A DNA stretch of 40,095 bases from a virus: positions 1 to 40,095 of the IMG/VR virus record IMGVR_UViG_3300031825_000039; one strand, given 5' to 3'. Below are positions 5,127-10,757 of the stretch, piece after piece (position 1 is the stretch's first letter; each line of letters begins with the position of its first letter). A program made the position numbers and the translations under genes. Below the pieces are notes generated by a model. It ran no database searches, was not told where the DNA came from, and worked only from the letters and a program-made list of their open reading frames with translations.

Positions 5127-6053
5127 TTAGATGCCATCGACGTAGAGAACTTCCTTCGGCCGACGGATATCCAGGCCGCCCAGACGGAAGATGCCAGGGA
5201 TTTCCCAGCGCAGCGGACTCGCTTGATAGGCCGGCAGGAAGCGGTGGACCATCGGAATATGCAGCTTCAGCACGTTCGGGTCACGGCGGTAGGAAACCAG
5301 ACGTGCCGTGCCGCCGGCGCCGGCGGTGTTCAGCCCGCGCATGCCGCGAATCAGCAGCGGTTGTCCGGTCTGTGCGGTGTAGGCGTTGTTGGCCAGCAGC
5401 CAGTTTAGAATCGACACCGAGGAGGTGTCGCTGACCATGCGGGTGGCGAGGAGCAGGTATTTCTCGTAGGGCATCACGATGGTATTGGCCATCGCGGTGA
5501 ACAGGGTTCCGGTCGCCTGGCTGATCAGCGCGCCGTTGACGTCGGCGAGGATCTGCGCCGGGGTAGCGGTGGCCCAGTCGCCAGTGGTCGCGGAGCCGGC
5601 GGTGACGCTCGGGGCATTGACCAGGCCATAGAAGCCCTTGGAACTGTCGCCCAGCAGGGCAACGCGGTCAACCATCTCCTCGTAGGCGCGGCGGGCGGCC
5701 ATGGCATCGGCTGCCGGCAGGTTGATGCCCAGCATCTGCGCCTGGCTGATCTCCTCCAGGCCGTAGCCGTAGCCGATGCCTGCGGTGTATACGCCGGTTT
5801 CGTGCTTAGCCAGCTCGGTTCCCGCCATGGGGATGTCATCGGCGTTGCCGTTGATCCAGTCGGCCTTGCCGAACTGGTCGGAGGAGTAATAGGTCACGGT
5901 CTTGGCCCAGGGCGAGGCGGAGGTGTCGACCGGGATCAGCGACGGGTACTGGATATCCGGGTAGACGGTCTCGTTGACCTGGCGCTCGATGAACGAGGTC
6001 TGGGAGACGACGAAGCCGAGTGCGGCCTGAGCGTCGAGCAGTTTGAACGTCAT
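5127..6053 (-). CDS. Major capsid protein (DUF2184 family)
   Basis: A 308-residue protein matching the DUF2184 capsid family: N-terminal IERQVNETVYPDIQYPSLIP, central GYGYGLEEISQA, and a C-terminal FRLGGLDIRRPKEVLYVDGI. It follows the cement protein gene and the protease/scaffold gene, the usual order. It should adopt the HK97 fold and form the icosahedral shell around the internal scaffold; no N-terminal propeptide is obvious. Confidence 0.88.
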   Translation of the reverse strand: MTFKLLDAQAALGFVVSQTSFIERQVNETVYPDIQYPSLIPVDTSASPWAKTVTYYSSDQFGKADWINGNADDIPMAGTELAKHETGVYTAGIGYGYGLEEISQAQMLGINLPAADAMAARRAYEEMVDRVALLGDSSKGFYGLVNAPSVTAGSATTGDWATATPAQILADVNGALISQATGTLFTAMANTIVMPYEKYLLLATRMVSDTSSVSILNWLLANNAYTAQTGQPLLIRGMRGLNTAGAGGTARLVSYRRDPNVLKLHIPMVHRFLPAYQASPLRWEIPGIFRLGGLDIRRPKEVLYVDGI

Positions 6054-6062
6054 GATGCTTCC

Positions 6063-6515
6063 TTAGCCCAGGCGGACTTGTGCGAGTTGATTGATGGCGG
6101 TGGTGCTGGTGTCGAAGCGGGCATTCGGCAGTTGCACGTTGCCGGTCGCGACGTTGGTGAACAGCCCGGTGGCTGGCACGACATAGACCGGATCGCCGAC
6201 GGCGACTGCCACCGAGGCCAGCACCCAGATGGCGCCTTGGGTCAGCACGCGGGCAGAGTCGTACTGCTTGAATTGGTCGGCCTCAGCCGCCACGGAGCGC
6301 TCGCGCACGGTGATGCCGACGAAATCGGCGGCGGTGTCGCTGGTGGTGAAGGCGCGGATACCCTTGTCGGCGGCGCCCTGCGCGACCGGGATGCCGAAGG
6401 CCAGGCCGCCCGCGTCCTCAACGGTGCGCGAGAGTAGGGTTTTCGGGATCGTGTCCACCAGTTGGCCGGGGACGGCGGCGCGGATGTTCTCGGAATAGGT
6501 GCTCTGAACGGCCAT
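6063..6515 (-). CDS. Head decoration / structural cement protein
   Basis: A 150-residue protein with a beta-rich sequence (GLAFGIPVAQGAADKGIRAF, later VAVGDPVYVVPATGLF) resembling the small cement proteins that sit between scaffold and capsid genes in DUF2184-type phages. It would stabilise the shell surface. The gene overlaps the stop of the protease/scaffold gene by one base and is ten bases before the capsid gene. Confidence 0.7.
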   Translation of the reverse strand: MAVQSTYSENIRAAVPGQLVDTIPKTLLSRTVEDAGGLAFGIPVAQGAADKGIRAFTTSDTAADFVGITVRERSVAAEADQFKQYDSARVLTQGAIWVLASVAVAVGDPVYVVPATGLFTNVATGNVQLPNARFDTSTTAINQLAQVRLG

Positions 6516-7054
6516 TACTTGCTACCCCCTTTCCATGCGTCAGCGATGCGTTGCGCGTAGGCCGATTGGCCGTTGTCGTTGGTGTTCGGCTGGCTGTCGC
6601 GAGCCTGCAGATGCTGGCGCACCGGATCTTTCACGGAATCTTCCAGCAGCAGATCGAAACGGGCCTCGACGTAGGCCTCCGGCTTACCCTGGATCGCGGA
6701 ATCGCCCAACTTGGCGACTACGGCGGCCTTGCGGATCTCAGTGTCGGACTTACCGGTGTAATCGGCGTCAGCGATGGTCTTAGCTTTAGCGATCAGGTCG
6801 GCACGCGCCTGAACACGGTCGTCGATCTGGGCATCGCTCAGTTGCTTTGCCTTGAGGCCATCGAGTTCGGCGTCCTTCTTCGCCAGCTCGGCGTCCTTGG
6901 CGGCCAGGGCAACGGCATGAGCATCTTTCAGTGCTTGCTTACTCGCTTCGGCATCGCTGAGCTGCTTGGTCAGCTTCTCGATGGCCTGGGCGCCCTGTTC
7001 AGTGGTGTCGATGGTGAGGCCATCAACGATGACCTTGCGTAGTGCGTCAGCCAT
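6515..7054 (-). CDS. Nested scaffold protein from an internal start
   Basis: An in-frame ATG at 7054 inside the protease gene is preceded by a perfect AGGAGG with seven bases between. It would yield the last 179 residues: a short N-terminal segment, a long charged coiled coil, and a C-terminal tail. This is the arrangement of lambda C/Nu3 and of herpesvirus protease/scaffold genes, where the more abundant scaffold starts inside the protease gene. The ribosome binding site is seen directly; use as a start is inferred. Confidence 0.72.
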   Translation of the reverse strand: MADALRKVIVDGLTIDTTEQGAQAIEKLTKQLSDAEASKQALKDAHAVALAAKDAELAKKDAELDGLKAKQLSDAQIDDRVQARADLIAKAKTIADADYTGKSDTEIRKAAVVAKLGDSAIQGKPEAYVEARFDLLLEDSVKDPVRQHLQARDSQPNTNDNGQSAYAQRIADAWKGGSK

Positions 7055-7609
7055 GTGATGGCCTCCTATGGTGTTGGGATTCTGGTTGTCGCCTATGCGC
7101 AGTTGCGGGCCGCCGCGCGCGCGGTCGACCAGGGCGAGGTGATTCATGAGCATCGGTCCGAGCCTAGCGTCGTAGGGCTGACCGTCCGGGGTCACGCCAT
7201 CCTCGAAGATCACCTCGGCGGAGTAGCCCATGGACAGCTCGCGCTTGCCTGCCTCGTAGTCGGCGATAGCGGAGGCGTCCATCAGCACCAGCGGCACGCG
7301 GACGAACTCGCCGTCGCGCACCACTTCGCCGCCGGTCTGGCCAATGGCAACGTCCTTCCAGTTCTGGGCGGTGACCGTTTCGGGAGGATGGTCATTGGTC
7401 ATCGGCCGATAGGCGTAGGAGCGCATGGCATCCTGGGCGAACACCGACTCCGGCGGTCGGTAGACGCGGATGATCGGTATGTCCGGCTTGTCCAGTTCGG
7501 AACCCAGGTATTCCTGAATGCCAACGCTTGCCACCCGAGCATCGGCCACGAGGTAGCCGTCAGTCGTCCGGCGCGTACCGGAGACCGTTACGGAATCATG
7601 AAGAAGCAT
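6515..7609 (-). CDS. Prohead protease-scaffold fusion (DUF2213)
   Basis: A 364-residue protein with two parts. Residues 1 to about 170 match the DUF2213 family, probable prohead serine proteases of the herpesvirus-assemblin type: TNDHPPE supplies a histidine, RELSMGYSAEV the likely serine, and NHLALVDRARGG a conserved end block. Residues about 200-364 are a charged coiled coil (DAELAKKDAELDGLKAKQ) typical of internal scaffolds. The ATG follows GAGGAA with seven-base spacing. A second start inside the gene would make the scaffold part alone. Proteolysis should clear the scaffold before DNA packaging. Confidence 0.8.
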   Translation of the reverse strand: MLLHDSVTVSGTRRTTDGYLVADARVASVGIQEYLGSELDKPDIPIIRVYRPPESVFAQDAMRSYAYRPMTNDHPPETVTAQNWKDVAIGQTGGEVVRDGEFVRVPLVLMDASAIADYEAGKRELSMGYSAEVIFEDGVTPDGQPYDARLGPMLMNHLALVDRARGGPQLRIGDNQNPNTIGGHHMADALRKVIVDGLTIDTTEQGAQAIEKLTKQLSDAEASKQALKDAHAVALAAKDAELAKKDAELDGLKAKQLSDAQIDDRVQARADLIAKAKTIADADYTGKSDTEIRKAAVVAKLGDSAIQGKPEAYVEARFDLLLEDSVKDPVRQHLQARDSQPNTNDNGQSAYAQRIADAWKGGSK

Positions 7610-7633: not shown

Positions 7634-9433
7634 CTATTTGGCCGGGTCCAGGTCCTCGAATATTTCGGGACCCAGCTCGATGCGGCCGCGATACGGGTCT
7701 ACCCGGCTCAGATCAATCGACCTAGGCTCATAGGTGATGGTGATGTGTGGCTGGTATTCCTCGAAGTCCCAGGACGCTCCAGCCTCTATGATTTGCACAT
7801 GACGCCAGGACAGTTCGGAGCTGTTGAACAACAGCACTACGGCGCCTTCATCACCAAGCGGCTCTACCAGGCGAGCGCCACCGGGCGCTACCGTGAGCGT
7901 TCCATCCTGCTTACCACCCCAGTCATTTCCGACCTTCATCCAGTCCAGCGCCTGCCTGCTGTAAGCGATGGTGACGTGCAGCTCATCTGCCTGAACCGTC
8001 TTCTCAAACCCCTGCGCCTTAGCCCAGGCCAGGATTTCGTCTCCGTTGAGCACCTTTCGCTGCACATAGAGCGGCCGCGGGGCGGCATCACCAATGTTGG
8101 TCGTTGCGCCACTCGTAGATCCCTGATCGGTAGGATCTCCCTGCTCCACCTCAGATAGCGCGGAGCCGTACTTCTCGATGGCCGCGTCCAGGCCGGGGAC
8201 CACGCTGTTCTCGACCAGCAGCGTCACCGCTGCCTCACTCAGCGCGTCGTCAGGGAACAACTTGGAATCCTTGAGCGTCTTGATCGTGTCGGCGGTGGTC
8301 TTTCCGATGGTTGCCCGCTCAGTCGCCGTTGACTGCCAGAGGCTGTGCCATACGTAGTGGATCGGCTCAGGACGACCACCCAGCGCCGAGCGGATCAGGC
8401 ACTCGTCCAGCATGGCCATGGCCGGCGCGATCTCCAGCTCCTGCAGCGACTGAATACGGTCGTAGTAGTTGCGGGTGTCGCTCTCCCCGGTAGCGCTCAT
8501 CCCGGCCGGCGCCTGGCCGAGTAGGCGAGTCACAGGGATGTCGGCCGCCCCGGCAACGACCTGCAAAAATCGGTCGAGAATGTCGGGAAGGGTGCTGAAG
8601 TTGGCGGTCTTGCTCTCGTACTCTTCGTCCTTGTCGAGCAGCAGCGTGCCATTGATACCCTTGGCGATGGAGGCCAGACGGAAGCGCTCCAGCAGCAGCT
8701 TCTCGTAGGCCTTGTCCTGCAGGTTCTGCATCAGGTAGGGGACGCGGATCACGTCCACCTTGGCCTCGAATACCAGGCTGGCGACGTTGGCCACGGTTGC
8801 ATCGGCATGCTTGACGGCCTCCATGATCGCCGTCAGCACCGAGTCGCCCCAGCCGAATCCGGCGCCGCAGGCCTGCTCATGATCCGGGAAAGGCGCGCCG
8901 ACGAACTCGACCAGGCGAGACGGATGAATCTCCACGGCAGAACCATGCATGCGGTATGCCCTGGGCCTGCCATAGCGAGGCGACTGCGGATCCTGCTCCA
9001 GCTCAGTGGCGGATAGCTGCCGCCGGGTCATTACGGTCAGGTAGCGGATTCCCCCGGCGCCGATGCGCTCAACCGCCAGCGGCCTGCTTGGGTCAGTCTC
9101 GCCGGTGCCAATGAACACTGCCGCGCCGCCGAACAGGCGAGCCTTGGTCAGTGCTTCGAGTATCCTGGCCTTGACGCAGAGCCGTTTCTCCTCGGCTTCG
9201 ATCAGGCCGATCTGTTCGGCATCGGCCTGCCAGGCCCGCCATTTTCGGCAGGCGTCCATGGCCGGGATGTCGACGATCTTGCGCGGTAGCCAAGCGCCGC
9301 GATAGGCGTTGATCAGTTGCTCGTCGGTCAGGAGCACTGGGGCATAGGCCGAGCCGGAGGCCTTGTCGCGCTCGGTGCCAAGATTGGCCACGAGGTTGAC
9401 CAGCTTGTCGGCCATGTAGTGGATAACGCCCAT
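7634..9433 (-). CDS. Portal protein (DUF1073 type) with C-terminal Acb1-like 2H phosphoesterase domain
   Basis: A 599-residue protein. Residues 1 to about 430 are a DUF1073/Phage_portal_3-type portal (GAWLPRKIVDIPAMDACRKWR; LLGQAPAGMSATGESDTRNYYDR), which forms the dodecameric DNA channel. After a Gly/Thr/Asp-rich linker (about 430-452), residues 453-599 form a separate domain: PLYVQRKVLNGDEILAWA, LHVTIAY (HxT, 486-488) and QPHITITYEP (HxT, 563-565). The paired HxT motifs and the YV.RKVLN start match the anti-CBASS protein Acb1 of T4, a 2H phosphoesterase that hydrolyses cyclic di- and trinucleotide alarms. Both histidines and both threonines are present, so activity is plausible. Start uncertain: 9433 or an in-frame ATG six codons later. 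Confidence 0.85.
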   Translation of the reverse strand: MGVIHYMADKLVNLVANLGTERDKASGSAYAPVLLTDEQLINAYRGAWLPRKIVDIPAMDACRKWRAWQADAEQIGLIEAEEKRLCVKARILEALTKARLFGGAAVFIGTGETDPSRPLAVERIGAGGIRYLTVMTRRQLSATELEQDPQSPRYGRPRAYRMHGSAVEIHPSRLVEFVGAPFPDHEQACGAGFGWGDSVLTAIMEAVKHADATVANVASLVFEAKVDVIRVPYLMQNLQDKAYEKLLLERFRLASIAKGINGTLLLDKDEEYESKTANFSTLPDILDRFLQVVAGAADIPVTRLLGQAPAGMSATGESDTRNYYDRIQSLQELEIAPAMAMLDECLIRSALGGRPEPIHYVWHSLWQSTATERATIGKTTADTIKTLKDSKLFPDDALSEAAVTLLVENSVVPGLDAAIEKYGSALSEVEQGDPTDQGSTSGATTNIGDAAPRPLYVQRKVLNGDEILAWAKAQGFEKTVQADELHVTIAYSRQALDWMKVGNDWGGKQDGTLTVAPGGARLVEPLGDEGAVVLLFNSSELSWRHVQIIEAGASWDFEEYQPHITITYEPRSIDLSRVDPYRGRIELGPEIFEDLDPAK

Positions 9434-9443
9434 GCTTTCTGTC

Positions 9444-10757
9444 TCAGATGATGTTCTGGAGGGTGTAGCGTCCGGCGCATGGCCAGATCGCCTCGACGCA
9501 GTAGCCGATGGCAGTTGTGATGTGCTGGTACTTGTTCTTCTGGTCTTCCTGAAAGGTCGACCCCTCCTGCAGCTGCACTGTTGCCAGGCCCTTGTCGCAC
9601 CAGGGCGCGGTGGCCGGGTTGACGAACAGGCTGCGGTGGCCGTCAGCGGTACGGATCTTGGCGCGAACCGCGTTCTGGCGATCCTTGATCGCCGGATGTG
9701 CCGGCTTCACCTTGCGGGTGTAGCTCCAGCCATTGGCGCGCAGCACCCCCTCGATATCGGAGTAGTCCGAGGCGTGCCCATGCTTCTCACCGGCCTGCCC
9801 CGCAGGGTCGCCGTAGATGAGGACGTGCTTGTTCTGGTGGCCCTTGAATTTCTCCACGAACTCCAAGGCGGACTGCTTCGAGACGGCGCTCGTGAGCACG
9901 ATCTCGTCCAGCAGGTACAGATCATCGCCGCGACGGACCCCGACAGCTGATGACAGCGGGGTGAAGTTCTGGTCATGCATCCACAGCAGCTGTTCGTGCG
10001 GCTCGATGCTGGCGCTGGTGTGGTTGTCCTTGCTGTAGTCCTCGTATATCCGGCCGGATGCCGTCTCGAACGAGGCCTCGAACTCCTGCTTGAACTGCTT
10101 GGCCGACATGGCACGCTTCATGGCGGCCATCACGTCAGGCGGCAGGATCTCGGCGGACTTCCAGTGGAACACCTTGAAGTTCGGGTCTTTGCCACTTTCG
10201 GCCTGCATGCACAGGTCGTAGTAGTGGTTCAGGCCGTCCGGCACGCCCAGCAGCCAGCACCACGCCCGATAGTCAGGGCGCGTTGGGTTGACCGTGTTCA
10301 GCGCCGGCAGGATGTTCGCCTCCCAGGCATCCGGCTTGATGTCGGCGAACTCGTCGATGCCGCCGCCCGTCCACGGGATACCCTCGATCCGCTGCGGCTT
10401 GTCCAGGCCGATGACGTGGATCTCGCTGCCGCTGGGCAGGTAAATGATCCGGTCGGACTCGCTCGGTCTTTTCGGATGCACGCAGGACAGCGTGAATGCC
10501 TTTAGGTCATCCCAGAAGATTTTCTTCGCTTGGTCATGCGTTGGAGCGGCCGCGAAGTAGATGCCTGGAACCGCAGAGGCCTGATGTACCAGGAACCGCT
10601 TGAACCGCTCCGTCTTCCCGCTCCGGCGCCCAGCAGGTACTAGGGGGAAACGAATGCCATTCGGCACGGCCGCAATGAGCGCCAGCTGTACTGGGTGGTC
10701 CTTGAGCTTGTACCAGCGGGCGAGCTGTCTATCGAGTAGTAGGTTCCCTGTACTCAT
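9444..10757 (-). CDS. terL: Terminase large subunit
   Basis: A 437-residue packaging motor. Walker A is AGRRSGKT (residues 42-49), Walker B is GGGIDEF (Asp135-Glu136), and the C-terminal half carries RNase H-like nuclease features (LWMHDQNFTP, LLDEIVL, LIYGDPAG). It would cut and translocate DNA into the prohead through the portal. The start overlaps the stop of the small subunit by four bases, and the portal gene follows ten bases after its stop. Confidence 0.93.
   Translation of the reverse strand: MSTGNLLLDRQLARWYKLKDHPVQLALIAAVPNGIRFPLVPAGRRSGKTERFKRFLVHQASAVPGIYFAAAPTHDQAKKIFWDDLKAFTLSCVHPKRPSESDRIIYLPSGSEIHVIGLDKPQRIEGIPWTGGGIDEFADIKPDAWEANILPALNTVNPTRPDYRAWCWLLGVPDGLNHYYDLCMQAESGKDPNFKVFHWKSAEILPPDVMAAMKRAMSAKQFKQEFEASFETASGRIYEDYSKDNHTSASIEPHEQLLWMHDQNFTPLSSAVGVRRGDDLYLLDEIVLTSAVSKQSALEFVEKFKGHQNKHVLIYGDPAGQAGEKHGHASDYSDIEGVLRANGWSYTRKVKPAHPAIKDRQNAVRAKIRTADGHRSLFVNPATAPWCDKGLATVQLQEGSTFQEDQKNKYQHITTAIGYCVEAIWPCAGRYTLQNII

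Follow-up and report, generated by a model that had tools for sequence, protein, structure and literature searches.

What does an Acb1-like domain do at the end of a phage portal protein? This question is raised by a gene in the head module of a 40,095-base IMG/VR virus record, the whole of which is called the window here. Fusions of 2H domains with MuF or portal domains were noted by Iyer et al. (2017), who proposed that these 2H domains could degrade the nucleotides of counter-invader systems (PMC5512222), and a passage published in 2022 restated the proposal (PMC9503650). The fusion type and the proposed purpose of that class are the same as for the window's gene, and the class predates the characterization of Acb1. 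The passages of Iyer et al. on these fusions make no mention of this gene, DUF1073 or protease fusions. The idea raised by an earlier note on this DNA, of an anti-immunity enzyme on the portal, is therefore not new: 2H-portal and 2H-MuF fusions were already proposed as anti-immunity in 2017 (PMC5512222), and the window's fusion belongs to a type predicted before. The Acb1-portal fusion was not described in the open-access papers examined, most subscription literature being outside the scope of the search; the cassette behavior, the loss of the lid and the range of portal and protease families that carry Acb1, all reported below, are added detail not found stated in that open-access literature.

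Organization of the portal-Acb1 gene

All features described here are on the minus strand. The portal-Acb1 gene (7634..9433) is open for 599 codons and encodes a protein of 599 amino acids, in which both PF06381 and PF23474 scored above their cut-offs. The portal domain, PF06381 (Phage_portal_3, DUF1073), occupies residues 39-385 (8279..9319) with an E-value of 1.9e-107, and NCBIfam (TIGR01555, over its cut-off) and PHROGs (PHROG 146, portal) concur with Pfam on this region. The best match of the full-length model by fold was the Pam3 portal, 8HDS (E 5.9e-32). The portal is followed by a linker at about residues 425-452 (8078..8161), which differs among relatives in both sequence and length and is predicted to be disordered, with pLDDT below 50 at residues 425-447. 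A conserved DAAPR motif (residues 449-453, 8075..8089) follows the variable linker and precedes the first strand of the next domain. This motif or close variants of it occurred in most portal_3 fusions and were absent from the N-terminal fusions to proteases; DAAPR may be a cleavage site or merely the domain start, and its reading as a protease site is an idea only.

The Acb1 (2H phosphoesterase) domain covers residues 454-596 (7646..8074) and begins with PLYVQRKVLN at residue 454. Alignment to T4 and FBB1 Acb1 placed the first catalytic motif, HVT, at residues 486-488 (7970..7978; T4 H44/T46) and the second, HIT, at residues 563-565 (7739..7747; T4 H113/T115). The C-terminus, PAK-stop (7634..7645), ends ahead of the lid tryptophan of T4 and FBB1 Acb1, as judged from the comparison of the tails and the alignment column of T4 W147. 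The reading frame and the two Pfam matches bear out the layout described in the earlier note, namely a complete portal, then a linker, then a domain with PLYVQRKVLN and the HVT and HIT motifs, and the coordinates given there were right (residues 453-599 correspond to 8077-7637, plus the stop).

The genes around the fusion are in the ordinary order of a head module: terminase subunits, portal, DUF2213, cement and major capsid. The terminase large subunit (9444..10757, PF03237) is directly upstream, and a DUF2213 head scaffold/protease-type protein (6515..7609, PF09979, E 4.5e-51) directly downstream, followed by a capsid cement protein (6063..6515, PF22758, named for E217 gp24/Pam3 gp6) and the major capsid protein (5127..6053, PF09950). 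The DUF2213 family itself bears an N-terminal Acb1 in other phages.

Identity of the C-terminal domain

The earlier note had called the domain an Acb1-like 2H phosphoesterase, and the profile, the fold and the active site all confirmed this. PF23474 matched residues 454-596 at 143.7 bits (E 4.2e-42), far above its cut-off of 27. The general 2H profiles LigT_PEase and 2_5_RNA_ligase2 both remained under their cut-offs on the window's protein, and an identity as an RNA 2',3'-cyclic phosphodiesterase (LigT/ThpR) was rejected for this reason. The best solved matches by sequence were the Acb1 structures 7T26/7T27 (E 6.6e-9). The domain was modeled with a mean pLDDT of 91, and the comparison with Acb1 that the earlier note had suggested gave a match: FBB1 Acb1, 7T26, was at the top of the fold search (E 2.4e-9, TM 0.77/0.82), with 7T27 at TM 0.74/0.77 and, below these, a Burkholderia phage phosphodiesterase and then LigT, which was also weaker. 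The same Y/HxT/HxT spacing came up only 46 times when the domain was shuffled 100,000 times, which speaks against chance; the profile and fold matches carry far more weight than this statistic.

The residue numbering of T4 Acb1 and the active-site roles are those of Hobbs et al. (PMC9117128). The catalytic tetrad H44/T46/H113/T115 is present in full as H486/T488/H563/T565, and the equivalents of Y12, F107 and E141 are also present (Y456, F557 and E593). The stacking position W74 is E524 in the window; it is F in FBB1, so this position is no constant of the family. The lid tryptophan W147, a ligand contact in the T4 and FBB1 enzymes that the PF23474 profile does not require, is missing because the protein ends with LDPAK soon after E593. 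The lid bearing W147 closes over the ligand in Acb1 (PMC9117128), and its absence suggests that substrate handling in the window's protein may differ from that of T4 and FBB1 Acb1. The profile, the 2H fold, the tetrad and the Y12/F107/E141 positions are common to the window's domain and to T4 (57B) and FBB1 Acb1 (PF23474; 7T26, 7T27; Hobbs et al. 2022), but the latter are encoded by separate genes of about 152 amino acids with the C-terminal W147 lid, whereas the former is part of a portal protein and lacks the lid tryptophan, with an activity that is predicted from its sequence.

Conservation of the active site and loss of the lid

For the analysis of conservation, the loci fetched first were biased and were set aside, as AWAKAQGF was among the search patterns and H44/T46 lay within a later one. 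The unbiased checks were the portal-only search, which was blind to Acb1, and the H113/T115 motif, which no pattern covered. HT/HT was found in all 24 distinct domains reached through the portal-only search, and the equivalent of H563 (T4 H113) was invariant in 186 of 186 distinct Acb1 domains. The whole tetrad was intact in 184 of these 186. The first catalytic histidine was lost in L057:6001-6426 (H to Y) and L251:5001-5450 (H to N), which are probable natural inactive copies. The median pairwise dN/dS was 0.23 in the domain, against 0.30 in the portal; the pairs are not independent, and these values say only that both parts are under purifying selection.

The lid was less constant. The tryptophan was kept in 96 of 143 distinct portal_3 fusions and missing in about a third, and the E141 position varied in about a fifth. 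Phages near the window, such as L022 and L083, kept the tryptophan, and many close relatives were also without it; lid loss was frequent within the portal clade of the window. In one case, L144:5935-7821 and L083:5935-7806, the portals and flanks were near-identical and the tail of L144 continued in another frame after FEEID without the lid tryptophan, so that L144 is, by its sequence, a natural lid variant. The lid has thus been lost repeatedly, and its loss in the window is a real caveat on the substrate.

Gain and loss of the domain on PF06381 portals

The portal-only search returned 71 complete portals, down to about 56% identity. This survey of DUF1073 portals, a check that the earlier note had proposed, found the Acb1 domain in 35 of the 71 and no such domain in the other 36. 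Portals about 97% alike differed in having or lacking it. On the portal tree, which was a quick one with some long branches, the presence/absence label changed at least 16 times, at least 9 of them on well-supported branches. Two pairs in which one member alone carried Acb1 were compared at the DNA level: L114 and L121 were 92% alike up to the portal end and 89% after it, and L118 and L119 were 94% alike before and 96% after, with the flanks around the gain or loss in the two pairs 88-96% alike. Portals without the domain, such as L114, L118 and L131, are 56-70% identical to the window's portal and end after an acidic linker. From these comparisons, Acb1 on the portal is a swappable accessory cassette that has been gained or lost repeatedly. 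Since the portal can do without it, the domain cannot be needed for assembly in general.

Acb1 on other head proteins and alone

Attachment of Acb1 was not limited to PF06381 portals. The domain was found C-terminal to Portal_Mu (L059, L227, L228, L244, L274 and L336) and to PF04860 portals (L260, L321, L343 and L304), between a portal and MuF (L314), and N-terminal to MuF (L346). It was also N-terminal to DUF2213, of the scaffold/protease type (L012:2181-4055, L240:3610-4878, L264:4866-6623, L267:4824-6704 and L288:4908-7154), to Peptidase_S78 (L292:4932-6095, and weakly L065), and to XkdF-type proteases (L062:5602-6834, L296:48-1259 and L353:4371-5606, with ChaB too in L296 and L353). In L012, L264 and L267, a separate portal_3 gene lay upstream of the Acb1-DUF2213 gene. 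Architecture changed at least 15 times on the tree of the Acb1 domain, but the tree is poorly resolved and gives no number of independent fusions. To judge from the families named, the common factor of the carriers would be that they are proteins of the procapsid interior.

Several other arrangements were seen. L064:4273-7554 encodes one protein of 1094 residues in which Acb1 lies between a portal and an ADP-ribosyltransferase exoenzyme-like domain (PF03496). Acb1 was also found inside very large proteins of 1164-2864 amino acids (L060:3340-11538, L291:1278-9869, L273:624-6386 and L295:2421-5912), and the L273 protein bears a pyridine nucleotide-disulphide oxidoreductase domain as well. In L013:5905-7464 (Limnoglobus roseus) and L290:4935-6497, which are separate records with Acb1 parts 78% identical, Acb1 was followed by about 350 residues without a convincing Pfam match. 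In L073:158-2144 (Synechococcus phage Yong-M3-232), Acb1 and the portal are encoded in different reading frames that overlap where the portal gene ends (3'); the two are either unfused or the outcome of a frameshift or sequencing error. Standalone Acb1 occurs in T4, FBB1 and Ruegeria phage V10. In the annotation of L001:3992-4444 (Ruegeria phage V10) and L002:2116-2715 (Edwardsiella phage ZHS), the Acb1-domain gene is called a prohead protease, a name perhaps carried over from the protease fusions.

Probable position of the domain in the head

The C-terminal barrel of the portal of a solved relative, E217, projects into the head (PMC10329688). Because the E217 C-terminus faces inside and the linker of the window's protein is predicted to be disordered, the Acb1 copies would be flexibly tethered within the head lumen, and a dodecameric portal would carry up to twelve of them per procapsid. 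The earlier note had sited the domain at the portal vertex; it is indeed on the portal, but the position of the E217 barrel would place the copies inside the head lumen.

The cyanophage Pam3 portal (PDB 8HDS, 621 amino acids) has the same portal plus Acb1 architecture and is 46% identical to the window's protein over the full length; its Acb1 domain differs in keeping the lid tryptophan and in having HIS as the second motif. The 8HDS chain in the PDB fold library has 442 of the 621 residues and covers the portal part, and 8HDS was not among the 50 best matches listed for the domain-only fold search. From this we infer that the Acb1 part of 8HDS was left unmodeled, be it flexible, cleaved or absent there.

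Possible function of the portal-tethered domain

The explanation that we favor, with confidence a little above even, is that the domain is a working Acb1-family 2H phosphodiesterase, carried as a cassette on the portal, which is made with the head module and hydrolyzes CBASS cyclic di- and trinucleotides during assembly. The Acb1 domain would be produced together with the proteins of the head module, and late synthesis fits what would be expected of a head gene. In the infected cell, it would hydrolyze the cyclic di- and trinucleotide alarm signals of the host while the heads assemble, and tethering to the portal would put up to the full dodecameric set of copies in each procapsid. Of nine further Acb1 homologues tested by Hobbs et al., all nine cleaved 3'3'-cGAMP and cAAA (PMC9117128). 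According to one report, a prohead protease is an interaction partner of a CBASS sensor (PMC12409349), and the alarm could thus plausibly be raised at head assembly. The same report makes the fusions of Acb1 to prohead proteases (L292, L062, L296 and L353) notable. As mature heads are closed, an enzyme in the lumen would need to do its work no later than assembly, or through pores of the shell. The missing lid tryptophan, in the window and in about a third of portal_3 fusions, and the variable E141 position count against a working enzyme. With regard to hosts, a SMODS cyclase match, barely above the cut-off, was found in one of six bacterial genomes carrying the domain, a small sample searched for one cyclase family, and the genome surveys had 1 of 369 and 2 of 385 genomes above the Acb1 cut-off, seeds included, which is too few for host statistics.

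The main rival, which we regard as unlikely but which the data do not separate from the favored explanation as far as release and injection are concerned, has the domain cleaved off the portal at head maturation, kept in the head and ejected with the DNA to shield the next infection from its start, following the polyvalent-protein model of Iyer et al. The window's gene has an effector-type domain on a head protein, as in the polyvalent or injected proteins, and the other carriers of Acb1 include MuF, very large multidomain proteins and a protein with an adjacent ADP-ribosyltransferase, which are kinds that passages of the two papers propose to be injected (PMC5512222, PMC9503650). The DAAPR motif just ahead of the domain, conserved where the rest of the linker varies, and the partial model of the Pam3 portal point the same way; however, DAAPR may simply start the domain, and a flexible tether explains the missing Pam3 density equally well. 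Moreover, the portal remains in the capsid; release would need a cleavage step that is so far hypothetical. It is also rather doubtful, though conceivable, that the domain is active as a 2H phosphodiesterase but acts on something else, for instance RNA ends bearing a 2',3'-cyclic phosphate or a different nucleotide signal, in which case the name Acb1 would be too strong. The loss of the lid tryptophan, frequent in the window's portal clade, and the E524 at the position of T4 W74 would agree with such a substrate, LigT enzymes match the fold, if more weakly, and an RNase role was also proposed by Iyer et al. (PMC5512222). On the other hand, the Acb1 profile clearly outscores the LigT and 2'-5' ligase profiles, position 74 is also not W in the active FBB1 Acb1, and the Y12, F107 and E141 equivalents are kept.

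The earlier note had also considered recruitment of the domain for a structural purpose. In favor of this, its fusion partner is an essential structural protein, and L057 and L251 have lost the first catalytic histidine. However, very close portals often lack the domain, the tetrad is intact almost throughout, and unrelated head proteins carry the domain with its active site kept; a scaffolding-only role was rejected as the main reading on these grounds, and recruitment for head assembly in a structural or inactive form seems very improbable. The repeated gain and loss with the tetrad kept, together with the attachment to other head proteins, argue for a catalytic rather than a structural role.

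If the favored explanation of an active Acb1 is correct, the same polypeptide would serve as a building block of the head and as an alarm-silencing enzyme, tying counter-defense to head assembly. What is of most interest in the finding is that Acb1 has been joined to head proteins repeatedly. We tentatively suggest, as one possibility, that Acb1 was attached several times to procapsid-interior proteins (those of three portal families, MuF, and those of three protease/scaffold families) because the place matters, either since the alarm would be removed at the site where head assembly is detected by CBASS sensors, or since the enzyme would be loaded into the head through assembly proteins. The natural presence/absence pairs L114/L121, L118/L119 and L127/L131, with the lid-plus and lid-minus variants, make the question testable, and the pairs address how the domain affects growth on CBASS hosts and whether its location on a head protein matters.
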